From an uncultured Lutibacter sp. (GTDB taxonomy: Bacteria > Bacteroidota > Bacteroidia > Flavobacteriales > Flavobacteriaceae), in assembly GCF_937891065.1 (NCBI RefSeq), contig NZ_CALAEQ010000082.1, forward strand, positions 1 through 33,096: a stretch of 33,096 nucleotides of DNA, in the 5' to 3' direction. Shown in pieces: positions 20,430 through 33,096 of the stretch. Each line of letters opens with the position of its first letter. Position 1 is the stretch's first letter. The notes under the pieces are model-generated. The model ran no database searches and was not told the DNA's origin. It was given only the letters and a program-made list of their open reading frames with translations. The translations under genes and the position numbers were made by a program.

Positions 20430-21821
20430 ATGTCGTCTCATTACGAAGCACCTATAAGAAGACCTTTAATTGTTGGAGATAAAAGCTACCACGATATTAC
20501 AGTTGAAGTAGCAGCTCCTGTTGAAGGTAAAGCAAATAAATTATGGTGGACAGCATTTATAATTGCACTAGTAGCTTTCCTTTGGGGAGTTGGGTCAATT
20601 ATATACACTATTGGAACAGGAATTGGAGTTTGGGGATTGAATAAGACCGTAGGTTGGGCTTGGGATATTACCAACTTTGTATGGTGGGTAGGTATTGGTC
20701 ACGCCGGTACACTTATTTCCGCAGTACTTTTATTATTCCGTCAAAAATGGAGAATGGGTATTAACCGTTCTGCTGAAGCAATGACAATTTTTTCTGTTGT
20801 GCAAGCAGGTTTATTCCCAGTAATACATATGGGGCGTGTTTGGAATGCACATTTTGTATTACCACTTCCAAATCAATTTGGTACACTTTGGACTAACTTT
20901 AACTCTCCATTATTATGGGATGTTTTCGCGATTTCAACATATTTATCAGTTTCATTAGTTTTCTGGTGGACAGGTTTATTACCAGATTTTGCAATGTTAC
21001 GTGATAGAGCAGTTAGACCATTTCAGAAGAAAATATACAGCTTATTAAGTTTTGGTTGGAGCGGTAGAGCTAAAGACTGGCAACGTTTTGAAGAAGTTTC
21101 ATTAGTGTTAGCAGGTTTGGCAACACCATTAGTACTTTCGGTTCATACAATTGTATCATTTGATTTTGCTACATCAGTAATTCCAGGATGGCATACTACA
21201 ATTTTCCCTCCTTATTTTGTTGCAGGAGCGGTATTCTCAGGATTTGCAATGGTAAACACCTTGTTAATTATAATGAGGAAAGTGTCAAACTTGGAAGCTT
21301 ATATTACAGTACAACATATTGAATTAATGAACATTGTAATTATGATTACAGGTTCAATAGTTGGTTGTGCTTATATAACAGAATTGTTTATAGCTTGGTA
21401 TTCAGGTGTTGAATATGAACAATATGCATTTTTAAATAGAGCAACCGGACCATATTGGTGGGCTTATTTATTAATGATGAGTTGTAATGTGTTCTCTCCA
21501 CAATTTATGTGGTCTAAAAGATTAAGAACAAGTATTATGTTCTCATTCTTTATTTCAATAGTTGTAAACATTGGAATGTGGTTTGAAAGATTTGTAATTA
21601 TTGTAACATCATTACATAGAGATTATCTACCATCATCTTGGACAATGTTCTCACCAACATTTGTAGATATTGGAATTTATGTGGGAACCATTGGTTTCTT
21701 CTTTGTGTTGTTTTTATTATACGCAAGAACATTTCCAGTAATTGCACAAGCAGAGGTTAAATCTATTTTGAAGTCATCAGGTGAACAGTTTAAAAAATTA
21801 AGAGACGGAAATCATGAGTAA
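20430..21821 (+). CDS. actC: alternative complex III subunit ActC (NrfD-like quinol-binding protein)
   Basis: This integral membrane protein of 463 residues belongs to the NrfD/PsrC family, with about ten hydrophobic segments, for example 'WTAFIIALVAFLWGVGSIIYT' and 'GFFFVLFLLYART'. In alternative complex III, ActC pairs with ActB and holds the menaquinol oxidation site near the periplasmic side. The conserved 'WWVGIGHAGTLISA' and 'HTIVSFDFA' stretches carry the His and Asp residues linked to quinol binding in the family. Its end overlaps the start of actD by 8 bases, which suggests translational coupling. Confidence 0.95.
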   Translation: MSSHYEAPIRRPLIVGDKSYHDITVEVAAPVEGKANKLWWTAFIIALVAFLWGVGSIIYTIGTGIGVWGLNKTVGWAWDITNFVWWVGIGHAGTLISAVLLLFRQKWRMGINRSAEAMTIFSVVQAGLFPVIHMGRVWNAHFVLPLPNQFGTLWTNFNSPLLWDVFAISTYLSVSLVFWWTGLLPDFAMLRDRAVRPFQKKIYSLLSFGWSGRAKDWQRFEEVSLVLAGLATPLVLSVHTIVSFDFATSVIPGWHTTIFPPYFVAGAVFSGFAMVNTLLIIMRKVSNLEAYITVQHIELMNIVIMITGSIVGCAYITELFIAWYSGVEYEQYAFLNRATGPYWWAYLLMMSCNVFSPQFMWSKRLRTSIMFSFFISIVVNIGMWFERFVIIVTSLHRDYLPSSWTMFSPTFVDIGIYVGTIGFFFVLFLLYARTFPVIAQAEVKSILKSSGEQFKKLRDGNHE

Positions 21822-22335
21822 TAAAGTAATACAAGCAATGTATAATGATGATGATATCCTTATGGATGCCGTAAAAGAAGTACGCGCAGCAAATCATCAC
21901 ATTCAAGAAGTTTATACACCATTTCCTGTTCATGGTTTAGACAAAGCCATGGGATTAAAAGGTACACGAATTGCAATTACAGCTTTTATTTATGGTTGTA
22001 TAGGTTTTGTATTTTCTATTTGGATGATGAACTATATGATGATCGAACAATGGCCACAAGATATTGGTGGTAAGCCAAGTTTTTCATTCATACAAAATAT
22101 GCCAGCATTTGTGCCTATAATGTTTGAAATGACAGTGTTTTTTGCAGCACATTTAATGGTAATAACATTTTATATGCGTAGTAAATTATGGCCATTTAAA
22201 GAAGCTGAAAACCCAGACCCAAGAACAACGGATGATATGTTTGTTATGGAAGTTTCTGTGGAAGGAAATGAAGCTGAATTAGTTTCGTTTTTAGAAAAAA
22301 CAGGAACAGTTGAAATTAAAGTAACTGAAAAGTAG
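21814..22335 (+). CDS. actD: alternative complex III subunit ActD (DUF3341)
   Basis: ActD has 173 residues and two membrane helices (about 50-72 and 103-125) joined by a short outside loop with 'GGKPSFS'. N- and C-terminal parts are cytoplasmic. The N-terminal 'YNDDDILMDAVKEV' and 'VYTPFPVHGLDKAMG' are typical of the DUF3341 family. It has no cofactor motif and is a structural subunit of the membrane part. The start ATG lies inside actC (8-base overlap), and actE follows 5 bases after its stop. Confidence 0.93.
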   Translation: MSNKVIQAMYNDDDILMDAVKEVRAANHHIQEVYTPFPVHGLDKAMGLKGTRIAITAFIYGCIGFVFSIWMMNYMMIEQWPQDIGGKPSFSFIQNMPAFVPIMFEMTVFFAAHLMVITFYMRSKLWPFKEAENPDPRTTDDMFVMEVSVEGNEAELVSFLEKTGTVEIKVTEK

Positions 22336-22340
22336 TTAAA

Positions 22341-22895
22341 ATGAAAAACATTTTAAAAATAACAATAGCATTGGCTTTTACATTTATAGTGTCATCATGT
22401 TGGAGTGATAAAACAAAGCCAAATTACCAGTATATGCCCGATATGTATAAGTCTGTTGGGTATGAAACGTATTCTGAAAATCCAAATCATGCAAATGGTA
22501 TGACCACACAACTTCCTGTTGAAGGAACTATTGCACGTGGACAAGTACCTTATGATTTTGATAATACAAATGAAGGGTATGAAGCGGCAAAAATAGATTC
22601 TAAAAATCCATTAGAATTGAATGAAGCTAATTTAGCGAATGGAGAAAAGATGTACACTATTTATTGTAATACTTGTCATGGAAAAACAGGTGTTGGAGAT
22701 GGAGAATTGGTTAAAAGAGATAAATTTTTAGGAGTTCCTAATTATAAAGACAGAGAAATAACTGAGGGTAGTATTTACCACGTTATTATGTATGGAAGAA
22801 ATATGATGGGATCACACGCTTCTCAGTTAACAGCTAAAGAGCGTTGGCAAACAACAATGTATGTTCAGCAATTAAGAACTGAACTATTAAAATAA
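22341..22895 (+). CDS. actE: alternative complex III subunit ActE, mono-haem lipoprotein cytochrome c
   Basis: The 184-residue precursor has a lipoprotein signal peptide with lipobox VSSC (Cys20), so it is anchored at the outer face of the inner membrane. A single haem site, CNTCH (about residues 109-113), is followed by the 'MYGRNMMGSHASQL' segment that would supply the methionine ligand. ActE carries one c-type haem near ActA and passes electrons towards the terminal oxidase. With the seven sites of ActA, the operon encodes eight c-haem sites. It lies 28 bases before actF. Confidence 0.94.
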   Translation: MKNILKITIALAFTFIVSSCWSDKTKPNYQYMPDMYKSVGYETYSENPNHANGMTTQLPVEGTIARGQVPYDFDNTNEGYEAAKIDSKNPLELNEANLANGEKMYTIYCNTCHGKTGVGDGELVKRDKFLGVPNYKDREITEGSIYHVIMYGRNMMGSHASQLTAKERWQTTMYVQQLRTELLK

Positions 22896-22923
22896 CACTT
22901 TTACTAAGATAGAATTTAAGAAT

Positions 22924-24261
22924 ATGTATACCTTTTCAAGTAAATTAAAAATAGTTGCATTTGCTCTAATGATTATTGGGTTTTTGGGAGTTGGATATGG
23001 CTTTTTATCTACACCAAGTTCAGTAGAAGATGTTAAACTAATGATGCAAGATAGTCATGATACTCATGGTGAAGTAGCTACAACTCATCAAGTAGAAGCA
23101 GAAGTTGCGGGTCATGATACTTTAGCTAGTGTTGAAACTGAAACACATTCAGATGATGCACATGCAGAACACGTATTACATTTATTGCAAAACAAACCTT
23201 GGTCAGCATTATATGTTGCTTTGTTTTTCTTTTTTATGATTTCATTGGGCACATTAGCTTTTTATGCTATTCAACATGCTTCACAAGCTGGTTGGTCTGT
23301 TGTATTATATAGAGTTATGGAAGGAATAGCAGCTTATTTGCCTGTTGGTGCAATTTTATTATTTGTATTCTTTGTACTTTCATCATTACATATGAATCAT
23401 TTATTTGTATGGATGGATCCTGAAGTAGTAGCACATGATGAGCTAATTCAAAATAAAGTAGGTTATTTAAATGTACCATTCTTTTTAATTAGAGCTGCAA
23501 TTTATATGGCAGGATGGATTTGGTACCAACAACATTCAAGAAAATTAACATTAGCTCAAGATAGCGCTACAGATATAAGTAATTACACAAAATTATTCAA
23601 ACGTTCAGCAGCATTTTTAGTATTCTTTTTAGTAACAGAATCTATGATGTCTTGGGATTGGATTATGTCTTTAGATCCACATTGGTATAGCACATTATTT
23701 GGATGGTATGTATTTGCAAGTATGATTGTTTCAGCAATTACAACAATTGCATTGGTTTCAATATATTTAAAAGGAAAAGGATATTTAGAATTTGTAAACA
23801 ATAGTCATTTACATGATTTAGCAAAATTTATGTTTGGTTTTAGTATTTTCTGGACCTACTTATGGTTTTCTCAGTTTATGTTAATCTGGTATGCAGATAT
23901 TCCTGAAGAAGTGACATACTTTGTAACAAGATTTAATGATTATAGATTGCCGTTTTTAGGAATGGTAGTTTTAAACTTTGTATTCCCATTATTGGTGTTA
24001 ATGAACAGTGATTATAAACGTGTAAACTGGTTTATAGTTTGTACCGGTATTGTAATTTTAATTGGTCATTATATAGATATTTATGTAATGATAATGCCAG
24101 CAACAGTTGGAGAACAATGGTTTTTTGGTATTTCTGAAATAAGTTCAGCTTTATTAATTTTAGGAGTATTTATATATGTGGTTTTTAATGCATTAACAAA
24201 AGCTCCATTATTAGCAAAAGGGAATCCATTTATAAAAGAAAGTGAACATTTTCACTATTAA
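22924..24261 (+). CDS. actF: alternative complex III subunit ActF (NrfD-like)
   Basis: ActF is the second NrfD-like integral membrane subunit, 445 residues with about ten hydrophobic segments. It is related to ActC but is thought not to bind quinol and may serve in proton translocation. After the first helix there is a His- and acid-rich loop (about 37-85, with many H and D/E residues such as 'HDTHGE', 'HSDDAHAEH') on the presumed periplasmic side. Conserved-looking segments include 'LHMNHLFVWMDPEV' and 'WDWIMSLDPHWYSTLFGWYVFAS'. It is the last gene of the operon and is followed by a terminator. Confidence 0.94.
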   Translation: MYTFSSKLKIVAFALMIIGFLGVGYGFLSTPSSVEDVKLMMQDSHDTHGEVATTHQVEAEVAGHDTLASVETETHSDDAHAEHVLHLLQNKPWSALYVALFFFFMISLGTLAFYAIQHASQAGWSVVLYRVMEGIAAYLPVGAILLFVFFVLSSLHMNHLFVWMDPEVVAHDELIQNKVGYLNVPFFLIRAAIYMAGWIWYQQHSRKLTLAQDSATDISNYTKLFKRSAAFLVFFLVTESMMSWDWIMSLDPHWYSTLFGWYVFASMIVSAITTIALVSIYLKGKGYLEFVNNSHLHDLAKFMFGFSIFWTYLWFSQFMLIWYADIPEEVTYFVTRFNDYRLPFLGMVVLNFVFPLLVLMNSDYKRVNWFIVCTGIVILIGHYIDIYVMIMPATVGEQWFFGISEISSALLILGVFIYVVFNALTKAPLLAKGNPFIKESEHFHY

Positions 24262-24287
24262 AGCATAAAAAATTAGATAGAAAACAG

Positions 24288-24318
24288 TCCTGAATACATT
24301 TTATTCAGGATTTTTTTT
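24288..24318 (+). terminator. terminator after actF
   Basis: TCCTGAATA (24288-24296) and TATTCAGGA (24302-24310) form nine perfect pairs with a 5-base loop, followed by eight T's. It separates the act operon from the cox genes, whose own -7 element starts at its last T. Confidence 0.9.
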
Positions 24319-24325
24319 ATATTTG
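24318..24325 (+). promoter_or_regulatory. predicted -7 promoter element of coxB-coxA
   Basis: TATATTTG matches TAnnTTTG, with predicted start near 24331 and a leader of about 26 bases. The place of the -33 element is taken by the actF terminator stem, so no -33 is recognisable. Confidence 0.55.
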
Positions 24326-24330
24326 GCAAC

Positions 24331-24350
24331 ACTATACTAACTACTAACAA
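24331..24350 (+). repeat. leader element shared with coxA (copy 1)
   Basis: ACTATACTAACTACTAACAA lies at the predicted 5' end of the cox transcript, just before the coxB ATG. A copy differing by a 4-base AACT gap lies before coxA. Confidence 0.5.
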
Positions 24351-24356
24351 AAAAAT

Positions 24357-25367
24357 ATGACAGCATTACTTTATGTTTTATTGGCAATTGTGCTTGCCGT
24401 TGCTATTTGGCAAATAACAAGTATACTCAATTTAAAGGGCGTAATCGCCACTGAAAAAGATAATAATACCCAAGGAGTCTTATTTGCGGCCTTTGGAATT
24501 TTCTTCTATGGTTTAATGATATTTTCGTTTTGGAAATATTCGGTAATTTTATTACCAGATGCAGCTTCAATAGAAGGCGAAAGTTATGACACACTATATT
24601 TAGTAACTATGTTACTAATTTTAGTTGTTCAAGCAATTACCCAATTTTTACTATTCTATTTTGCTTTTAAATATAGAGGTATTAAAGGAAGAAAAGCTGT
24701 ATTTTATGCTGATAGTCATAAATTGGAAATGATTTGGACAATTATTCCAGCAATAACTTTGTCGGGATTAGTATTATATGGACTTTTTGTTTGGAATGAC
24801 GTTATGGATACTTCAGATGCTGAAAACCCTTTAATTGTTGAAGTTTATGCTAAACAATTTCAATGGGAAGCTCGATACGCTGGAGAAGATAATGAATTAG
24901 GTTTAGCCAACGTACGTAATATTAAAGGGATTAATACTATGGGGGTTGATATGACAGATAAAAATGCATTGGATGATGTGCCTGTTCGTGAATTGCGTTT
25001 GCCTAAAGGACGTAAAGTTATTTTTAAGTTTCGTTCACAAGATGTATTACACTCCGCTTATATGCCACACTTTAGAGCTCAAATGAACTGTGTTCCTGGT
25101 ATGGTTACTCAATTTGCATTCACTCCAAGTATGACTACTGAAGAAATGAGGTTGAATGATAAAACCATTGCTAAAGTGGATGGAATTAACAAAATTAGAG
25201 CCGAAAAAGGAGAAGCCCCTTACATATTTGACTACCTTTTATTATGTAATAAAATTTGTGGTGCTTCGCATTACAATATGCAAATGAAAATTGTTGTTCA
25301 GGAAGAAGCCGATTTTAATGCTTGGTTGAAAGATCAAAAAACAATGGTTCAAGTTGTTGTTCAATAA
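24357..25367 (+). CDS. coxB: cytochrome c oxidase subunit II
   Basis: The 336-residue protein holds the CuA centre that accepts electrons for the terminal oxidase. The CuA ligands are visible as C297, C301, H305 and M308 in 'CNKICGASHYNM', with a further His in 'VLHSAYMPH' and the aromatic 'KQFQWEARY' strand. Four hydrophobic N-terminal segments are present (about 2-20, 40-60, 78-103 and 123-145); classical subunit II has two, so an extra pair precedes them. No cytochrome c domain is fused at the C-terminus, so electrons must come from the Act haems. It lies 31 bases before coxA and is transcribed with it. Confidence 0.95.
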   Translation: MTALLYVLLAIVLAVAIWQITSILNLKGVIATEKDNNTQGVLFAAFGIFFYGLMIFSFWKYSVILLPDAASIEGESYDTLYLVTMLLILVVQAITQFLLFYFAFKYRGIKGRKAVFYADSHKLEMIWTIIPAITLSGLVLYGLFVWNDVMDTSDAENPLIVEVYAKQFQWEARYAGEDNELGLANVRNIKGINTMGVDMTDKNALDDVPVRELRLPKGRKVIFKFRSQDVLHSAYMPHFRAQMNCVPGMVTQFAFTPSMTTEEMRLNDKTIAKVDGINKIRAEKGEAPYIFDYLLLCNKICGASHYNMQMKIVVQEEADFNAWLKDQKTMVQVVVQ

Positions 25368-25373
25368 AAACTA

Positions 25374-25391
25374 ACTATACTACTAACAAAA
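25374..25391 (+). repeat. leader element shared with coxB (copy 2)
   Basis: ACTATACTACTAACAAAA lies in the coxB-coxA gap seven bases before the coxA ATG. It matches the coxB leader apart from a missing AACT; the 10-mer TATACTACTA also occurs just before rimP (10406-10415). Confidence 0.5.
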
Positions 25392-25398
25392 TATAATT

Positions 25399-27150
25399 AT
25401 GTCAGATCATCATCATAAAGAAACATTTGTAACTAAATATATATTTAGTCAAGATCATAAAATGATTTCTAAACAATACTTAGTAACAGGTATTTTTATG
25501 GGAATAATAGGCGTGTTAATGTCTATGTTATTCCGTTTACAAATTGCTTGGCCAGATCATTCATTTACTATAATTGAGGCTTTTTTAGGACGTCATCAAG
25601 ATGGAGGAGTTATGTCACCTGATATTTACTTAGCTTTAGTTACTATTCACGGTACTATCATGGTGTTTTTTGTACTAACAGCGGGTTTAAGTGGTACTTT
25701 TAGTAACTTATTAATTCCATTGCAAATTGGTGCTCGTGATATGGCATCTGGTTTTTTAAATATGGTTTCATATTGGTTATTCTTCTTATCAAGTGTAATT
25801 ATGGTTACTTCACTTTTTGTTGAAGCAGGACCAGCATCTGCAGGTTGGACAATTTATCCACCGTTAAGTGCTTTACCACAAGCTATTCCAGGATCTGGAA
25901 TGGGAATGACACTTTGGTTAATTTCTATGGCAATATTTATTGCTTCATCTTTACTAGGAGCTTTAAATTATATTGTTACAGTTCTAAACTTACGAACTAT
26001 AGGAATGAAAATGACAAGGTTACCACTAACAATTTGGGCGTTTTTTGTAACAGCAATAATTGGTGTGGTTTCATTTCCTGTATTATTATCAGCAGCGTTA
26101 CTTTTGATTTTTGATAGAAGTTTTGGAACATCATTCTTTTTATCAGATATTTTTATCCAAGGTGAAGTTTTACATTATCAAGGAGGTTCTCCTGTATTGT
26201 TCGAGCATTTATTCTGGTTCTTAGGGCATCCGGAAGTATATATTGTAATATTACCTGCAATGGGTATAGTTTCTGAAATTATAGCATGTAATTCCCGTAA
26301 GCCTATTTTTGGTTATAGAGCAATGATTGGATCAATTATAGCAATCGCGTTTTTATCTACCATTGTTTGGGGGCACCATATGTTTGTTTCTGGGATGAAT
26401 CCATTTTTGGGATCTGTATTCACATTTACAACTTTGTTAATTGCAATTCCTTCAGCAGTGAAAGCTTTTAACTGGATTACTACAATGTGGAAAGGAAATA
26501 TACAAATGAACCCAGCAATGCTTTTTTCTATAGGTTTTGTTTCTACATTTATTTCTGGAGGATTAACAGGGATAGTTCTTGGAGACAGTGCACTGGATAT
26601 TAATGTACACGATACGTACTTTGTGGTTGCCCACTTTCACTTGGTGATGGGTGTATCTGCAATTTATGGGATGTTTGCAGGTGTTTATCATTGGTTTCCT
26701 AAAATGTATGGCAGAATGATGAATAAAGTATTAGGTTATTGGCATTTCTGGATTACCGTAGTTGCAGCTTATGGTGTGTTTTTTCCAATGCACTTTGTTG
26801 GGCTAGCTGGTTTACCACGTAGATATTATTCAAATACAGCATTTCCATTATTTGATGATGTAGCGGATGTAAATATTGTAATTACTTTATTTGCAATTTT
26901 GGGTGGTGCGGCACAAATTATATTCTTAGCAAATTTCTTTATTAGTATTTATAAAGGGAAAAAGGCAGAACAAAATCCTTGGAGATCTAATACATTAGAG
27001 TGGACAACTCCAGTTGAGCATGTTCATGGGAACTGGCCAGGAGAAATTCCTGCGGTTCATCGTTGGCCATATGATTATAGTAAACCAGGACAACCTGAAG
27101 ATTTTGTCACCCAAATTACACCTTTAATGGATGGTGAAGAGGAATCTTAA
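25399..27150 (+). CDS. coxA: cytochrome c oxidase subunit I
   Basis: This haem-copper oxidase subunit I has 583 residues and about twelve membrane segments. All metal ligands are present: H84 and H414 for the low-spin haem, H412 for the high-spin haem, and H277, H326 and H327 for CuB. Tyr281 is placed for the His-Tyr crosslink and E279 in 'GHPEVY' is the proton-channel glutamate of A1-type enzymes. The His-rich start ('SDHHHKE') is typical of Bacteroidota. It reduces O2 to water while pumping protons. Subunits III and IV are not in the window. Directly following actABCDEF, it is expected to form a supercomplex with alternative complex III, as known in Flavobacterium johnsoniae. Confidence 0.97.
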   Translation: MSDHHHKETFVTKYIFSQDHKMISKQYLVTGIFMGIIGVLMSMLFRLQIAWPDHSFTIIEAFLGRHQDGGVMSPDIYLALVTIHGTIMVFFVLTAGLSGTFSNLLIPLQIGARDMASGFLNMVSYWLFFLSSVIMVTSLFVEAGPASAGWTIYPPLSALPQAIPGSGMGMTLWLISMAIFIASSLLGALNYIVTVLNLRTIGMKMTRLPLTIWAFFVTAIIGVVSFPVLLSAALLLIFDRSFGTSFFLSDIFIQGEVLHYQGGSPVLFEHLFWFLGHPEVYIVILPAMGIVSEIIACNSRKPIFGYRAMIGSIIAIAFLSTIVWGHHMFVSGMNPFLGSVFTFTTLLIAIPSAVKAFNWITTMWKGNIQMNPAMLFSIGFVSTFISGGLTGIVLGDSALDINVHDTYFVVAHFHLVMGVSAIYGMFAGVYHWFPKMYGRMMNKVLGYWHFWITVVAAYGVFFPMHFVGLAGLPRRYYSNTAFPLFDDVADVNIVITLFAILGGAAQIIFLANFFISIYKGKKAEQNPWRSNTLEWTTPVEHVHGNWPGEIPAVHRWPYDYSKPGQPEDFVTQITPLMDGEEES

Positions 27151-28249: not shown

Positions 28250-28256
28250 TTTTTTT

Positions 28257-28272
28257 TGTGATTGTCATCACA
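28257..28272. promoter_or_regulatory. CRP/FNR-type operator upstream of the SulP pair
   Basis: TGTGA-N6-TCACA is a perfect CRP-type palindrome, embedded in a longer repeat with TTTTGTGAT (28254-28262) and ATCACAAAA (28267-28275). Its centre is 28.5 bases before the -7 element, about -41 from the predicted transcript start, the class II activator position. The promoter has no -33 element, which fits activator dependence. Confidence 0.6.
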
Positions 28273-28292
28273 AAACTAAAAATACTTCACTG

Positions 28293-28300
28293 TACTTTTG
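28293..28300 (+). promoter_or_regulatory. predicted -7 promoter element of the SulP pair
   Basis: TACTTTTG fits TAnnTTTG. The predicted start is near 28305, about 28 bases before the ATG at 28334. Confidence 0.55.
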
Positions 28301-28333
28301 TCTTGTAAATAATTATAAACTTGTAAGTTAACA

Positions 28334-30076
28334 ATGAGTTTTAAACAACTATTTCCTTTTTTAACTTGGCTTCCATTAGTAAAAAAATCTTGGAAAGATG
28401 ATTTAATTGCTGGATTAACAGGGACTATAATAGTTATTCCGCAAGCAGTAGCCTTTGCGTTAATAGCTGGGATGCCACCAGTTTACGGTTTTTATATTGC
28501 TATGATTGCTCCTGTTATTGCAGCACTTTGGGGATCTTCAAATCACTTAATATCTGGTCCAACAACTACAAGTTCAATTGTTGTTTTTGCAATTATCACA
28601 AAATATTATCATCCGGAGAACGAAATAGACTTATATATTTCAATGACCATTGTATTGTCATTTATGGCTGGAGTTATTAAGTTGTTAATGGGGCTTTTTA
28701 AAATGGGAAAACTTGTTGATTTTGTCTCAAACTCGGTTGTAATTGGTTTTACAGCTGGAGCAGGAATCTTAATTGCATTTAAACAATTAAAACATGTTTT
28801 TGGGATAAATGTACCCCAAGGTTCTAAGATATACGAAGTTGTAAATTATATAATTTTACACATTAAAGAAACCAATTATTATGCTTTAATTGTTGCTTTA
28901 GTAACACTTTTAATTGCTATTATAATAAAAAAATTCATAAAGAAAATTGGAAGATTTAATTTATTAATTGCAATGGTATTAGGAACTTTACTAGCAATTT
29001 ATATGGGTGGAGAAAACTCAGGTATTCAAACAGTTGGAAATATACCAAGCCATTTGCCCCCTTTTAAAATTCCGAATTTCAGTTTTGATTGGATGCAGAA
29101 GTTATTTCCAGGAGCAATTGTTTTAGCGCTTTTAGGGTTGGTTGAAGCGGTTTCAATTTCAAGAGCTGTTGCTTTACATTCACATCAAAAGTTAAATAAT
29201 AATCAGGAATTTATTGGACAAGGGTTGTCAAATATAATTCCTAGTTTTTTCTCATGTTATGCAAGTTCGGGTTCTTTTACGCGTTCAGGTGTAAATTATC
29301 AGGCAGGAGCTAAAACACCTCTTTCAGCAATTATTGCTGGACTTGGTTTAATACTTGTTTTATTATTTGGAGCCAAATATGCTTCTTTCTTACCCAAACC
29401 TGCAATGGGAGGAATTATTTTATTGGTAGGTTATAACTTAATTGATTTTAAACATATAAAACTAATATATATGAGCAGTAAAAGAGAACTGCTCGTATTC
29501 AGCTTAACTTTATTAGGTACTTTATTTTTACATTTAGAACAAGCGGTAATTTTAGGAATTGCAGTATCGTTAATTTTTTATTTAGAACGTACTTCTAAAC
29601 CAAATGTGGCTGAATTAGGTTTAAATATTGACAAAAAATTTGTGAATATAATCAGAGATTCATCAGTAGAAGAATGTCCACAAATAAAAGTGATACGTAT
29701 TGATGGTTCACTTTATTTTGGAGCCGTTGAGGAAATTTCAAACTTTTTTATGAGTTTGTATGAAAAAAACACTTACAAACATGTTTTGGTCTTGTCAAAT
29801 GGAATTAATTTTATTGATTTGGCAGGAGCAGAATGGTTAACTCATGAAGTTGGCAAATGGAAGGCGAGAGGTGGTGGAATTTATTTTTCTGGATTAAAAA
29901 TTATAAGCCAAGATGTTCTAAATAATGGAGGTTTTTCTGAAAGAATTGGTTATGAAAATTTCTTTAAAGATAAGAATACTGCTATTTCTACAATTTACAA
30001 TAAATTAGAGAGCGATATATGTGAGAATTGTTCGGTGAAAATTTTTAAAGAATGTAAAAATGAAATTGAGTCTTAA
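28334..30076 (+). CDS. SulP family anion transporter with STAS domain, first copy
   Basis: This 580-residue inner membrane transporter belongs to the SulP (SLC26) family. The membrane domain opens with 'DDLIAGLTGTIIVIPQAVAFALIAG', has 'ISGPTTTSSIVVFA' and the 'SCYASSGSFTRSGVNYQAGAKTPLS' signature, and is followed by a cytoplasmic STAS domain (about 450-555). SulP proteins move sulfate, bicarbonate or other anions; the substrate is not readable. In the STAS loop the usual D-S-S-G is D-L-A-G, so no phosphorylatable serine is present. A C-terminal tail has Cys563, Cys566 and Cys574 (C-x2-C-x7-C), possibly a metal or redox site. The stop overlaps the next gene by 17 bases, which implies translational coupling and perhaps a heteromer. 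Confidence 0.92.
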   Translation: MSFKQLFPFLTWLPLVKKSWKDDLIAGLTGTIIVIPQAVAFALIAGMPPVYGFYIAMIAPVIAALWGSSNHLISGPTTTSSIVVFAIITKYYHPENEIDLYISMTIVLSFMAGVIKLLMGLFKMGKLVDFVSNSVVIGFTAGAGILIAFKQLKHVFGINVPQGSKIYEVVNYIILHIKETNYYALIVALVTLLIAIIIKKFIKKIGRFNLLIAMVLGTLLAIYMGGENSGIQTVGNIPSHLPPFKIPNFSFDWMQKLFPGAIVLALLGLVEAVSISRAVALHSHQKLNNNQEFIGQGLSNIIPSFFSCYASSGSFTRSGVNYQAGAKTPLSAIIAGLGLILVLLFGAKYASFLPKPAMGGIILLVGYNLIDFKHIKLIYMSSKRELLVFSLTLLGTLFLHLEQAVILGIAVSLIFYLERTSKPNVAELGLNIDKKFVNIIRDSSVEECPQIKVIRIDGSLYFGAVEEISNFFMSLYEKNTYKHVLVLSNGINFIDLAGAEWLTHEVGKWKARGGGIYFSGLKIISQDVLNNGGFSERIGYENFFKDKNTAISTIYNKLESDICENCSVKIFKECKNEIES

Positions 30077-31805
30077 AGATATATTTCCAATTTTTGAATG
30101 GTTACCAAATTATAATAAATCTTGGTTAAAAGGAGACCTTTCAGCAGGTTTAACAGTTGGAATTATGTTGGTTCCACAAGGTATTGCGTATGCCATGATT
30201 GCTGGGTTACCGCCAATTTATGGATTGTATACCGCTATGATTCCTCAAATCATCTATGCGATTTTTGGAACATCTAGACAACTAGCAGTTGGGCCTGTAG
30301 CTATGGATTCATTAATTGTAGCATCAGGAGTGGCAACATTAGCAGAAATTGGTACTGAAAATTTTATTGAATTTGCAATACTTCTAGCTTTTATGATGGG
30401 AGTTTTACAAGTAATATTTGGATTGTTTAAATTGGGGTTTTTGGTTAATTTTTTGTCAAGGCCAGTAATTAGCGGATTTACTTCTGCAGCTGCTTTAATA
30501 ATTGCATTCAGTCAGTTAAAGCATTTACTTGGGGTTAATATTCAAGGTGATAATAAGTTACATAGTATTGTTATAGCGCTATTTCAACACTTAAAAGATA
30601 TTAATTATATAGCTTTTGCAATAGGAGGGATTTCAATCTTAATTTTAATTTTCTTTAAACGAATAACAACTAAAATACCAGCTGCTTTAATTGTGGTAGT
30701 ATTTGGGATTTTAGTTGTGAAATATTTAAAATTAGATGAAGCAGGAGTTCAAATAATAGGAAATATACCAGAAGGATTACCATCTTTTAAAATGCCGAGT
30801 TTTAATATTGAAATAATGAAAGAGTTATTTCCTATTGCCCTAACGTTATCTTTTATTGCATTTTTAGAAGCAATATCAGTTGCAAAAGCAATTGAATTGA
30901 AACATAATAATACCTATAAAGTAATAGCAAATAAAGAGTTAATCGCTCTTGGAATGGGGAATATTATTGGCTCATTTTTCCAAACATATCCAGCAACTGG
31001 AGGATTGTCTAGATCAGCTGTCAATAATCAAGTAGGAGCAAAAACACCAATGGCTGCAATTATTGCGAGCGTTGTAATTGGGTTTACATTACTTTTTTTA
31101 ACTCCAGTTTTTTACTATTTACCAAAGTCAATTATTGCAGCAATAATTATAGTAGCAGTTTATGGATTGCTTGACTTTAAAGTTCCTAAACAAATTTTAA
31201 AATATTCGAAAAGAGAATTAATAATTTTAAATAGTACTCTTATAGTAACAGCAGTTGTTGGAATAAAAGAAGGGATTTTTATAGGGGTTATTTTATCAAT
31301 GGCAATGTTAATTTATAGAAGCACAAAGCCTCATATTGCTATTTTAGGAAAAGTTTCAGGGACTCATTTCTATAGAAACATAAAAAGATTTGAAGGACTT
31401 TTAGAGGTTAATGAAGCTATTTTAATAGTACGGTTTGATGCACAACTTTATTTTGCAAACGTTCAGTATTTTAAAGATAAATTAGAAGAGTATGTTATAG
31501 AGAAAGGAGAGAATTTAAAACTAATTATAATTGATGGAGAAAGCATAAATAGTATTGATAGTTCAGGTGTTTATATGTTATATGAAATTATTAAAAAGTA
31601 CAATAATTTAAATATTGATATAGTTTTTACAGGGATGAAAGGTCCTGTTAGAGATGTTTTTGAAAAAAGTGAAATCATGAAAGAAATTAGCTATAAAAAC
31701 TGTTTTATGAGTATTCAAGAAGCTGTTGATTCTTTTGATAAAAATTCAAATAATAAAGAAAATGGTCGTAACTTTATTAAATACGTTAAACAAACGAATC
31801 GTTAA
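30060..31805 (+). CDS. SulP family anion transporter with STAS domain, second copy
   Basis: The 581-residue paralogue of the preceding gene has the same plan: 'GDLSAGLTVGIMLVPQGIAYAMIAGLPPIYGLY' style entry, 'AVGPVAMDSLIVASG', 'PATGGLSRSAVNNQVGAKTPMA', then a cytoplasmic STAS domain (about 440-550). Here the STAS loop keeps the classical 'SIDSSGVYML' with serines. The Cys-rich tail of the first copy is absent and is replaced by an Asn/Lys-rich end. The two copies differ clearly in sequence, so this is an old duplication and not a recent one. The start lies inside the first gene. The context next to a persulfide dioxygenase-like gene favours a sulfur oxyanion substrate, but bicarbonate remains possible. 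Confidence 0.92.
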   Translation: MKLSLKDIFPIFEWLPNYNKSWLKGDLSAGLTVGIMLVPQGIAYAMIAGLPPIYGLYTAMIPQIIYAIFGTSRQLAVGPVAMDSLIVASGVATLAEIGTENFIEFAILLAFMMGVLQVIFGLFKLGFLVNFLSRPVISGFTSAAALIIAFSQLKHLLGVNIQGDNKLHSIVIALFQHLKDINYIAFAIGGISILILIFFKRITTKIPAALIVVVFGILVVKYLKLDEAGVQIIGNIPEGLPSFKMPSFNIEIMKELFPIALTLSFIAFLEAISVAKAIELKHNNTYKVIANKELIALGMGNIIGSFFQTYPATGGLSRSAVNNQVGAKTPMAAIIASVVIGFTLLFLTPVFYYLPKSIIAAIIIVAVYGLLDFKVPKQILKYSKRELIILNSTLIVTAVVGIKEGIFIGVILSMAMLIYRSTKPHIAILGKVSGTHFYRNIKRFEGLLEVNEAILIVRFDAQLYFANVQYFKDKLEEYVIEKGENLKLIIIDGESINSIDSSGVYMLYEIIKKYNNLNIDIVFTGMKGPVRDVFEKSEIMKEISYKNCFMSIQEAVDSFDKNSNNKENGRNFIKYVKQTNR

Positions 31806-31828
31806 ATTTTTCTAAAAATAAAATTTTA

Positions 31829-31844
31829 TGTAACTTGAATCACA
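31829..31844. promoter_or_regulatory. CRP/FNR-type operator upstream of the MBL/rhodanese gene
   Basis: TGTAA-N6-TCACA differs from the SulP operator by one base in the left half and shares the right flank ATCACAAAA. Its centre is 28.5 bases before the -7 element, the same spacing as at the SulP promoter. Confidence 0.55.
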
Positions 31845-31864
31845 AAAACATAAAATCTAACTTG

Positions 31865-31872
31865 TAGTTTTG
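31865..31872 (+). promoter_or_regulatory. predicted -7 promoter element of the MBL/rhodanese gene
   Basis: TAGTTTTG fits TAnnTTTG, with predicted start near 31877 and a leader of about 38 bases. No -33 TTTG lies at the usual distance. Confidence 0.55.
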
Positions 31873-31914
31873 AATTTCAAAATGTAAATTTAATAACATA
31901 AAAATCAGATAATT

Positions 31915-33096
31915 ATGAAAGTTGAACAATTGTTTACAGGATGCTTGGCGGAAATGGCATATTATATTCATTCCAATGGAGAAGCCGCAATAATTGACCC
32001 TTTAAGAGAAACTGAACCATATATTGAAATGGCAAAAGCTGATGGAGCTAAAATTAAATATATTTTTTTAACTCACTTTCATGCAGATTTTGTGTCTGGT
32101 CAAGTTGACTTAGCAAAAAAGACTGGAGCAACCATCGTTTTTGGTCCAAATGCAGATCCTATTTATGATATTCACCAAGGAAAAGATGGTGAAAATTTTA
32201 AAATTGGAGATTTAACACTTAAACTTTTACACACCCCTGGGCATACCATGGAATCTTCATCTTATTTATTAATTGATGAAAAAGGTAATAAACCTTATGT
32301 GTTTACAGGAGATTGTTTATTTATTGGTGATGTTGGTCGCCCAGATTTAGCTGTTAAATCTGATTTAACACAAGCTGATTTGGCAGGTCATTTATTTGAT
32401 TCTCTTCGAAATAAGATAATGACTTTACCTGATGATATTATAGTATATCCAAATCATGGAGCAGGTTCAGCCTGTGGTAAAAATATGAGCTCTGAAACTT
32501 TTGATACCTTAGGAAATCAAAAGAAAACAAACTATGCTTTAAGAGCTGATATGACTAAAGAAGAATTTATTGTGGAAGTTACAACTGGATTAAAACCACC
32601 ACCACAATATTTTGGGAATAATGTTAGAATGAATAAAGGTATTAACATTAGTATTGATGAAGTTATACACAGAGGTACTATTCCAATTGATGCTGATTCA
32701 TTCAAAGAAATAAGTGAGCAAAATGATATTTTGGTATTAGATACTCGTACCAAAGAAATTTATGCTGAAGAAGGTACCGTTCCGGGTGCTTGGTATATTG
32801 GTCTTGAAGGAGGTTTTGCACCTTGGGTTGGAGCATTAATTAAAGATATTAATCAAAAAATAATTTTTATTGCTGAAGAAGGAAGAGAACATGAAGTTGT
32901 AATTCGTCTTTCGCGTGTTGGATACGACCATACTTTAGGTTATTTACGTGGTGGAATTCATTCATGGAAAGCAGCAGGGCATAAAGTAGATAAAATTGGT
33001 TCTATATCTGCAACTCAATTTGCAAATAAACTAAAAGATGATTCTATGCAAGTTGCGATGGATGTTAGAAAAGAATCAGAATATTTATCTGAACAT
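31915..33096 (+). CDS. persulfide dioxygenase-like MBL-fold protein with rhodanese domains, 3' end missing
   Basis: An open frame of 394 codons runs from the ATG at 31915 to the window edge without a stop. Residues 1-240 form a metallo-beta-lactamase domain of the ETHE1/CstB group: 'THFHADF' (H54, H56, D58), 'HTPGHT' (H110), 'TGDCLFIGDVGRPDL' (D133) and 'YPNHGAGSACG' (H181). H54, H110 and D133 match the 2-His-1-Asp iron site of persulfide dioxygenases. A first rhodanese domain (about 255-360) has A-E-E-G-R (320-324) where active rhodaneses have a Cys loop, so it is probably inactive. A second rhodanese domain starts near 365 and is cut off. The likely reaction is oxidation of glutathione or other persulfide to sulfite, in the cytoplasm. 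Its operator links it to the SulP genes. Confidence 0.88.
   Translation, partial: MKVEQLFTGCLAEMAYYIHSNGEAAIIDPLRETEPYIEMAKADGAKIKYIFLTHFHADFVSGQVDLAKKTGATIVFGPNADPIYDIHQGKDGENFKIGDLTLKLLHTPGHTMESSSYLLIDEKGNKPYVFTGDCLFIGDVGRPDLAVKSDLTQADLAGHLFDSLRNKIMTLPDDIIVYPNHGAGSACGKNMSSETFDTLGNQKKTNYALRADMTKEEFIVEVTTGLKPPPQYFGNNVRMNKGINISIDEVIHRGTIPIDADSFKEISEQNDILVLDTRTKEIYAEEGTVPGAWYIGLEGGFAPWVGALIKDINQKIIFIAEEGREHEVVIRLSRVGYDHTLGYLRGGIHSWKAAGHKVDKIGSISATQFANKLKDDSMQVAMDVRKESEYLSEH

Follow-up and report, generated by a model that had tools for sequence, protein, structure and literature searches.

Crp/Fnr-type operators upstream of Lutibacter sulfur genes and candidate Crp-family proteins that may read them

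Which regulator reads the palindromes that precede the sulfur genes at the end of this Lutibacter contig? The window, by which we mean the whole 33,096-nucleotide stretch of DNA analysed, contains two neighboring predicted promoters, one upstream of a pair of SulP transporter genes and one upstream of a persulfide dioxygenase-like gene (the MBL gene). These operators appear to belong to a Crp/Fnr-type family that is widespread in Bacteroidota and often found beside persulfide-oxidation genes. Throughout, operator class (A/A, A/G, or G/G) refers to the base at position 4 of each half site. The window features are as follows.

28257 to 28272, no strand assigned: Crp/Fnr-type operator TGTGATTGTCATCACA, G/G class, 5' of SulP1, conserved in Lutibacter-type loci
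28293 to 28300, plus strand: TACTTTTG, a -7 element of the Bacteroidota type, 28.5 bp past the operator centre
28334 to 30076, plus strand: SulP1, SulP-family anion transporter with a STAS domain (Pfam PF00916 and PF01740)
30060 to 31805, plus strand: SulP2, sulfate permease-like transporter (Pfam search), overlapping the end of SulP1
31829 to 31844, no strand assigned: Crp/Fnr-type operator TGTAACTTGAATCACA, A/G class, 5' of the MBL gene
31865 to 31872, plus strand: TAGTTTTG, -7 type element, 28.5 bp past the operator centre
31915 to 33096, plus strand: persulfide dioxygenase-like gene, MBL fold plus rhodanese (Pfam PF00753 and PF00581), cut at the contig end

SulP1 scores 374 bits against TIGR00815, just under the 380-bit cut-off, and SulP2 exceeds that cut-off. 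The product of the gene at 31915 is persulfide dioxygenase-like by its domains; against the Blh equivalog it reaches 56.5 bits (cut-off 625). A direct reading of the sequence agreed with the initial annotation in the sequence, coordinates, and flanks of both palindromes, and each palindrome centre indeed lies 28.5 bp ahead of the T in TAnnTTTG. When we scored 10 palindrome positions at this offset, allowing up to two mismatches, only 2 of the 36 plus-strand TAnnTTTG elements in the window (28293 and 31865) had a palindrome; 52 other offsets gave one match in total at up to one mismatch. Inspection by eye found that neither promoter has a TTG where a -33 element would normally lie, as had been claimed. 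Given the assumed transcript start, the operator centres would lie at about -41, the class II activator position.

Whether these sites can be recognized elsewhere depends on how much of the pattern is searched. In the window's own genome, TGTRA-N6-TCACA had 8 forward and 8 reverse matches compared to 6 and 9 for the reversed control, and because it was on a par with the control we dropped this short form, suggested in the initial annotation, as a genome-wide predictor. The fuller motif TGTRAY-N4-RTYACA was enriched (23 matches, control 7), and more strongly so was the palindrome at fixed spacing to TAnnTTTG with up to one mismatch (5, control 1). Across 31 genomes of the genus, the latter search gave 120 matches and 12 in the reversed control; at least five of the listed matches among those 120 resemble an intragenic stretch at 21335 of the window, and not all 120 are promoters. 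Both operators, and largely their spacing, are conserved in Lutibacter-type relatives. The operator-to-element distance is 28.5 or 29.5 bp but is not universal: at the MBL gene, 13 of 15 Lutibacter-type loci have it, as do 11 of the 23 other loci that have a site. Upstream of SulP1, 23 of 26 Lutibacter-type loci are G/G, one is A/A, and two have no site. SQR-like operators are G/G in all eight Lutibacter loci; outside the genus (n = 7), five are A/A, one is A/G, and one locus has none. The Fisher tests covered loci whose site scored at least 9, which excluded 8 of 31 non-Lutibacter MBL loci (one being L036, whose upstream sequence spans only 72 b) and one of seven for SQR. The tallies omit the second MBL copies, all A/A, of L021, L025, L028, L041, and L043.

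The window contig continues through a 55-base exact overlap into contig C109 (10,081 bases), which supplies the 90-residue tail of the MBL gene. Genes for a rhodanese, a Tll0287-like protein, an FAD oxidoreductase, and an SQR-like protein lie in the 9,000 bases of C109 that we read, and operator-type sites precede the first and the last of these. The regulator gene that had been guessed to lie just right of the window was not found there: no Crp gene occurs in those 9,000 bases. An operator type common to the two SulP genes and the persulfide dioxygenase-like gene is supported, and such sites extend to a wider sulfur set (SQR, YeeE/YedE, rhodanese, Phs/Psr-like, and FeS-NrfD genes). TGTAAC sites also occur upstream of genes with no evident sulfur role.

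Four Crp proteins of the genome (A, B, C, and D) have a CRP-like recognition helix. A and D are encoded on either side of a YeeE/YedE pair, and B one gene away from a second SQR. They form two specificity classes: A and B are Val-type and bear a cysteine, and C and D are Glu-type. Both A and C score above the cut-offs for the cNMP-type domain (PF00027) and the Crp-type HTH (PF13545); D has only a weak CRP match (23 bits), is 34% identical to A, and has Ser in place of the cysteine that is near-invariant in this Crp family. Scores lie far below the cut-offs for the CRP equivalog (A 46.3 bits, cut-off 266), the NtcA equivalog (A 40.5 and B 53.2, cut-off 245), and the FNR subfamily (A 22.2 and B 19.6, cut-off 228). 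Of 13 genomes of the genus, 3 have an orthologue of C, and C may also be a reader of the sites. Given four proteins with CRP-like helices, two classes, and window sites that themselves differ in class (G/G at SulP1, A/G at MBL), the single activator of the initial annotation is too simple, even though the Crp/Fnr-type operator common to both promoters stands.

Similar Crps are frequent near sulfur genes beyond Lutibacter. Crp similarity gave 128 places, for which 120 regions cover 123, with C51 of the own genome added and G021, G025, G206, and G285 left out; region L156 yielded no typed Crp. Among 119 Bacteroidota loci fetched in this way, a sulfur gene lies within 4.5 kb of the Crp in 65, and no gene of the sulfur set lies nearby in 54. 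The fraction of ORFs assigned to the sulfur set declines with distance: it is 92 of 357 up to 1 kb from the Crp and 14 of 203 at 3 to 4 kb (domains were checked on one representative per cluster). Adding the Crps from MBL-fetched loci (29) to those from Crp-fetched loci (122) gave a set of 151, of which 71 have a palindrome within 250 b behind the stop codon, compared to 11 when read backwards. Judged from sequence, these palindromes have a CRP-like operator layout, in keeping with membership of the Crp/Fnr superfamily.

Operator class tracks one residue of the recognition helix, Val or Glu at position 181 of E. coli CRP. Excerpts of PMC11253593 describe contacts between the position-4 G:C pair of TGTGA and two CRP residues, Glu181 and Arg185. 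In 58 typed Crp-site pairs, Glu-type Crps had 20 G/G, 13 A/G, and no A/A sites (a G in 33 of 33), and Val-type Crps (n = 25) had 22 A/A, 2 A/G, and 1 G/G. These pairs are those whose best site is A/A, A/G, or G/G; the other 13 of 71 (2 Glu, 11 Val) were left out. The association (Fisher P = 4e-13) is uncorrected for kinship. Residue 181 changed at least four times on the tree, three of these forced by starred branches, and the site followed the residue in about three of three independent pairs. With only these three pairs on starred branches, the tree test is underpowered (P = 0.25), and for that reason we rejected covariation as statistically independent proof. In L118 and L141, a G/G palindrome lies right behind the Glu-type Crp and an A/A palindrome up to 0.45 kb upstream of the Val-type Crp, while in L118 the palindrome right behind the Val-type Crp is T/A. 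Counting against the rule, Glu-class loci also hold 10 A/A palindromes. Typing in non-Lutibacter genomes took 30 of 42 matches and left some matches in the genomes of L014, L020, L027, L030, and L037 untyped. Outside Lutibacter, L021, L025, L028, L038, and L040 carry weaker SulP2 sites in which one half has a G; a Glu-type Crp is present in the stretch fetched for only L025, L028, and L040.

Within Lutibacter, SulP1 operator class also largely follows the distribution of D. Orthologues of D (at least 63% identity) are present in 26 of 31 genus genomes, and nothing above 39% was found in 147 genomes from other genera of the family. Each of the 20 SulP1 operators compared from D-bearing genomes is G/G, whereas G477 (one contig, 99% complete), with no D and two Val-type Crps, has an A/A operator; this comparison leaves out two Lutibacter-type SulP1 loci, L002 and L011. 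G304 has D and no SulP1 site, and its SulP1 reading contains one internal stop. G474 (78% complete) has a G/G site and no D was found there, with a contig ending near the expected place of D. Among the Crps, D is the likeliest reader of the operators.

We consider it likely that a Crp/Fnr subfamily widespread in Bacteroidota controls a sulfur regulon with these palindromes as operators, and this reading includes the rule for residue 181 and the role of D. A Crp dimer would bind TGTRAY-N4-RTYACA with its centre near -41 and would act as a class II activator, assisting RNA polymerase at promoters that have TAnnTTTG but lack a -33 element. Predicted members of the regulon include the genes for persulfide oxidation, sulfide:quinone reductase, rhodanese, and the SulP and YeeE/YedE transporters. 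Residue 181 would set position 4 of the half site, with Val favoring TGTAA and Glu favoring TGTGA. In most Lutibacter, the Glu-type duplicate D, encoded behind yeeE-yedE, would have largely taken over, and the SulP1 and SQR-like operators would have become TGTGA under this takeover. Because the MBL operator is mixed, A and B may share it. Sequence comparison establishes the sites, their spacing and conservation, the linkage to sulfur genes, the covariation of residue and base, and the distribution of D; binding, activation, the transcript start, the signal, and D as main reader are inferences.

Alternatively, the cysteine-bearing Val-type proteins A and B could read these sites as elsewhere in Bacteroidota, with D uninvolved and Lutibacter Val proteins tolerating G. 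G478 (100% complete) is consistent with this: we found no D and one Val-type Crp, and its sites are mixed (TGTGATTTAAGTTACA at MBL and TGTAATCTAAGTCACT at SulP2), so Val does not exclude one G. In the same direction, 10 of 25 Lutibacter-type loci have an A/A site at MBL, and the site directly behind Val-type A in 14 Lutibacter genomes is G/G in 6 (A/A in 5, A/G in 1, degenerate in 2). Against it stand the lone G/G pairing among 25 typed Val-type cases, the contrast in SulP1 operators between the 20 D genomes and G477, and the only two G/G MBL loci found outside Lutibacter, L012 and L032, whose genomes both have a Glu-type Crp. We therefore regard an A and B regulon without D as unlikely.

It is rather improbable that the Crp protein instead represses, blocking the promoter until a signal releases it, although this could overlap with the explanation we prefer. 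CstR, SqrR, and BigR are named as repressors in excerpts of PMC9774590 and PMC11211675, but a predicted centre near -41 at a promoter that lacks a -33 element fits a class II activator layout, and a repressor needs no fixed distance of the kind that recurs in many of these promoters (28.5 or 29.5 bp). We give still less weight to an oxygen- or NO-sensing FNR-like protein, or another Crp-family member, reading the sites with sulfur as a secondary link. The genome does encode further cNMP-domain proteins, and A/A sites also precede napA; however, A-like genes lie near sulfur genes, and seven of those proteins (L092 to L095 and L097 to L099) do not have the R-[EV]-x-x-[ST]-R helix seen in A to D. 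We set these seven aside as readers on recognition-helix residues, by eye, with L096 left out. Chance AT-rich inverted repeats are a highly improbable source of the palindromes, since conservation and recurring spacing across the genus and beyond contradict coincidence despite the lack of genome enrichment of TGTRA-N6-TCACA alone.

The initial annotation suggested that the regulator may sense persulfide, redox state, or oxygen. Of the 151 family members, 149 keep the cysteine and 88 have another no more than 11 residues away; by alignment the conserved one would correspond to CRP Ile70, beside Gly71-Glu72. At the column of the cAMP-binding Arg82 of CRP, 136 members have Ser, 7 Asn, 5 Phe, and 3 other residues; none has Arg. 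We rejected the cysteine as proof of sulfur sensing because it is also kept in members with no sulfur gene nearby and in PDB 3dv8. A possible but doubtful reading of these sequences is that the Bacteroidota clade senses sulfane sulfur through a cysteine at the place where CRP holds cyclic AMP and activates persulfide oxidation, and that the cysteine-less, Glu-type D of Lutibacter captured core promoters by a one-residue, one-base change in specificity. If true, this capture uncouples the core promoters from the thiol sensor or adds a second input, G477 displays the older state, and the clade is a persulfide sensor outside the CstR, SqrR/BigR, FisR, OxyR, and MarR types.

Those regulators have been studied in other phyla, as far as the excerpts of the literature consulted describe them. 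Our literature search found nothing on how Bacteroidota switch persulfide-oxidation genes and no published description of such a Crp/Fnr-type system beside them. The present analysis supplies a candidate regulator family, operator, and specificity rule and predicts targets in many genomes, and the Lutibacter duplicate provides a natural example of joint change in the specificity of a regulator and that of its sites. Among solved structures, the best sequence match is PDB 3dv8 of the Crp/Fnr family, which shares the position of the cysteine and carries REVITR in its recognition helix; its name gives no function, and its listing shows no sulfur link. CstR, SqrR/BigR, and FisR likewise control sulfide- and persulfide-oxidising genes but are CsoR-like, ArsR, and Fis-type (sigma-54) proteins rather than Crp/Fnr, according to the excerpts of PMC9774590 and PMC11211675. 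NtcA of cyanobacteria resembles the Val-type proteins in having Val at the 181 position (recognition helix TRVTVTR), GTA/TAC half sites, and a class II position, which is predicted for the Val-type proteins. Excerpts of PMC3898017 give its site as GTAN8TAC at about -41.5 and its role as nitrogen control by 2-oxoglutarate, and A and B fall far below the NtcA cut-off. There is also a likeness to E. coli CRP (TGTGA-N6-TCACA, class II) in the Crp/Fnr domains, a 16-bp palindrome with a predicted centre near -41, and Arg plus Glu or Val in the recognition helix; the Bacteroidota family differs from it in lacking Arg82 (Ser in 136 of 151), in the cysteine at the Ile70 column, and in having its genes beside sulfur genes.

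Both palindromes and both TAnnTTTG elements reported in the initial annotation are present in the window at the positions it gave, and the centre-to-element distance is 28.5 bp in each case. Operators are listed below and classed by the base at position 4 of each half site (TGTAA or TGTGA).

28257-28272: operator upstream of the SulP-family transporter gene SulP1, G/G
31829-31844: operator upstream of the persulfide dioxygenase-like gene (MBL), A/G
31915-33096, + strand: MBL gene, MBL fold and rhodanese

The plus strand of the window carries 36 TAnnTTTG elements, only these two with a palindrome at the 28.5-bp offset. As a genome-wide signal, the short motif first proposed showed no enrichment in the window's own genome. 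The fuller motif TGTRAY-N4-RTYACA was enriched there (23 vs 7), and when combined with the fixed spacing it gave 120 hits, some inside genes, versus 12 for the reversed control across 31 genus genomes (≤1 mismatch).

The window is a full-length contig (C82), one of 276 in the genome, whose closest relatives with names are Lutibacter species. The end of C82 interrupts the MBL gene. The remainder is encoded on C109, whose first 55 bases are identical to the end of C82. The initial annotation had guessed at a regulator gene just right of the window; none was seen in the 9,000 bases read of the 10,081-base C109, and the genes that follow the MBL remainder on C109 encode:

rhodanese protein; an off-pattern palindrome at its gene, GTAACTTTAGTTAC, lies 29.5 bp before TACATTTG
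Tll0287-like protein
FAD oxidoreductase
SQR-like protein, 250 bits and thus below the type III SQR cut-off of 525

The order ruvB-SulP1-SulP2-MBL/rhodanese is retained in Lutibacter relatives wherever stretches are long enough to show it. Window positions 20430-27150, which border ruvB and the sulfur genes on their left, hold Alternative complex III (ActD, NrfD-type) and cytochrome oxidase genes.

Among the 23 genomic sites, 7 fall within long reading frames and 16 elsewhere. Eight of the 16 are upstream of a sulfur set: SulP1, MBL, SQR-like, a second SQR (above the type III cut-off), yeeE, FeS-NrfD, Phs/Psr-like and CoA-disulfide-reductase-like/rhodanese. The FeS-NrfD site has the 28.5-bp spacing and is also found in a second genome, G307; the yeeE and SQR-like sites have this spacing with one mismatch. 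One of the remaining eight precedes a peroxiredoxin gene, and seven lie before or near other genes, including napA.

C264, L084, 6640-13000: Phs/Psr-like run of molybdoenzyme, FeS, NrfD, YeeE-type and rhodanese genes, two palindromes ahead, one imperfect
C150, L255, 178-1872: CoA-disulfide-reductase-like/rhodanese fusion gene, TGTAATAATAATTACA 50 bp upstream
C235, L085, 981-996: site TGTAACTAAAATCACA, 70 bp ahead of the peroxiredoxin gene

In two Lutibacter genomes (L229, own C74:4097; L265, G307), TGTAAC-N4-GTTACA lies 227-250 bp upstream of the NapA-like nitrate reductase gene. TGTAAY sites also adjoin an outer-membrane-like gene in two genomes (L256, L289) and lie near a FadL/OmpP1-like gene (L261, L276, L288; gene in two, intergenic site in three); both genes were named by eye and have no evident sulfur role.

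A Pfam search found 11 cNMP-domain proteins in the genome, and a protein search added D. In four of these proteins the recognition helix is CRP-like:

A, C23:2461-3093: SRVVISR
B, C262: SRVVVSR
C, C51: VREVVTR
D, C23:4183-4815: SREAISR

The yeeE-yedE pair lies between A and D, TGTAACAAATGTTACA comes directly behind A, and B is one gene apart from the second SQR. Of 296 genomes searched in the phylum, 105 contain homologues of A (E ≤1e-25). Among 119 typed loci, fetched as A homologues, 65 have a sulfur gene ≤4.5 kb from the Crp, and the share of sulfur ORFs drops with distance (92/357 within 1 kb, then 32/211, 23/189, 14/203 and 3/37). Cluster names rest on one Pfam-checked representative per cluster; the two SQR clusters consist of Pyr_redox proteins and owe their name to similarity.

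The operator class follows residue 181 of the recognition helix (E. coli CRP numbering). Palindromes at 68 Val-type loci were A/A in 51 cases, A/G in 3 and G/G in none; at 70 Glu-type loci the counts were 10, 21 and 29. A site lies behind the Crp stop in 71 of the 151 family members (11 of 151 when read backwards). The 58 typed sites divide into 0 A/A, 13 A/G and 20 G/G for Glu, and 22, 2 and 1 for Val (Fisher p 4e-13, uncorrected for kinship). At least 3 to 4 residue switches are required by the tree; in about 3/3 independent pairs the site changed along with the residue, too few for significance.

The SulP1 operator and its spacing are conserved: the first set of Lutibacter-type loci was G/G in 13/13, with TAnnTTTG at 28.5 bp in 12, and 13 added loci comprised 10 G/G, 1 A/A (genome G477) and none in genomes G304 and G473, for 23/26 G/G in total. 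No palindrome scoring ≥9 was found upstream of SulP1 at 19 non-Lutibacter-type loci; some of these genomes have one before SulP2 instead. In G304, which has D, SulP1 (L449, C45:116090-117823) contains one internal stop and lacks the operator. MBL operators were 10 A/A, 11 mixed, 3 G/G and 1 none at 25 Lutibacter-type loci, and 21 A/A, 2 G/G and 8 none at 31 others; MBL genes of Cytophagia and Saprospiraceae are likewise preceded by palindromes. SQR-like operators were G/G in 8/8 Lutibacter; seven loci outside the genus, three of them just 45-50% identical, gave 5 A/A, 1 A/G and 1 none.

Orthologues of D occur in 26/31 genus genomes (12/13 and 14/18); across 147 genomes from the family's other genera, no match exceeded 39%. 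Typed orthologues carry Glu at 181 (12 typed in the first set, and 12 of the 14 in the second). In the 20 genomes known to have D, all SulP1 operators are G/G. G477, assembled as one contig and 99% complete, is without D; it carries two Val-type Crps, and its SulP1 and MBL sites are A/A. G473 (87% complete) also lacks D; its MBL has no such site and its SulP1 only a weak A/T site. On these sequence patterns, D best explains the operator shift in Lutibacter. However, G478 (100% complete) lacks D yet has mixed sites, and the site behind the Val-type A is G/G in 6/14 genomes, so Val-type proteins may tolerate a G. These genomes leave the odds as they were, G477 speaking for D and G478 against. 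The initial annotation's shared Crp/Fnr-type operators stand; in place of its single activator we prefer Val- and Glu-type paralogues, the window sites most likely being read by D.

A cysteine kept by 149/151 family members aligns to CRP Ile70, adjoining Gly71-Glu72; the account in PMC6603298 gives residues 71, 72, 82, 83, 127 and 128 as cAMP-binding. A second cysteine lies ≤11 residues away in 88/151. In D the position is Ser (15/15 distinct sequences). L028, also an exception, is truncated where its contig stops, and L012 contains a 45% relative that has Glu but retains Cys. Because the cysteine is also present in 3dv8 and in members with no sulfur gene nearby, it only suggests thiol sensing.

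A literature search, with subscription papers mostly outside its reach, found no report of persulfide oxidation in Bacteroidota being controlled by a Crp/Fnr regulator. The operators point to a sulfur regulon of this Crp/Fnr subfamily that is real and probably undescribed. In CRP, by the account in PMC11253593, Glu181 and Arg185 make contacts to the G:C pair at position 4. NtcA, whose site is described in PMC3898017 as GTAN8TAC, has Val at the 181 position.
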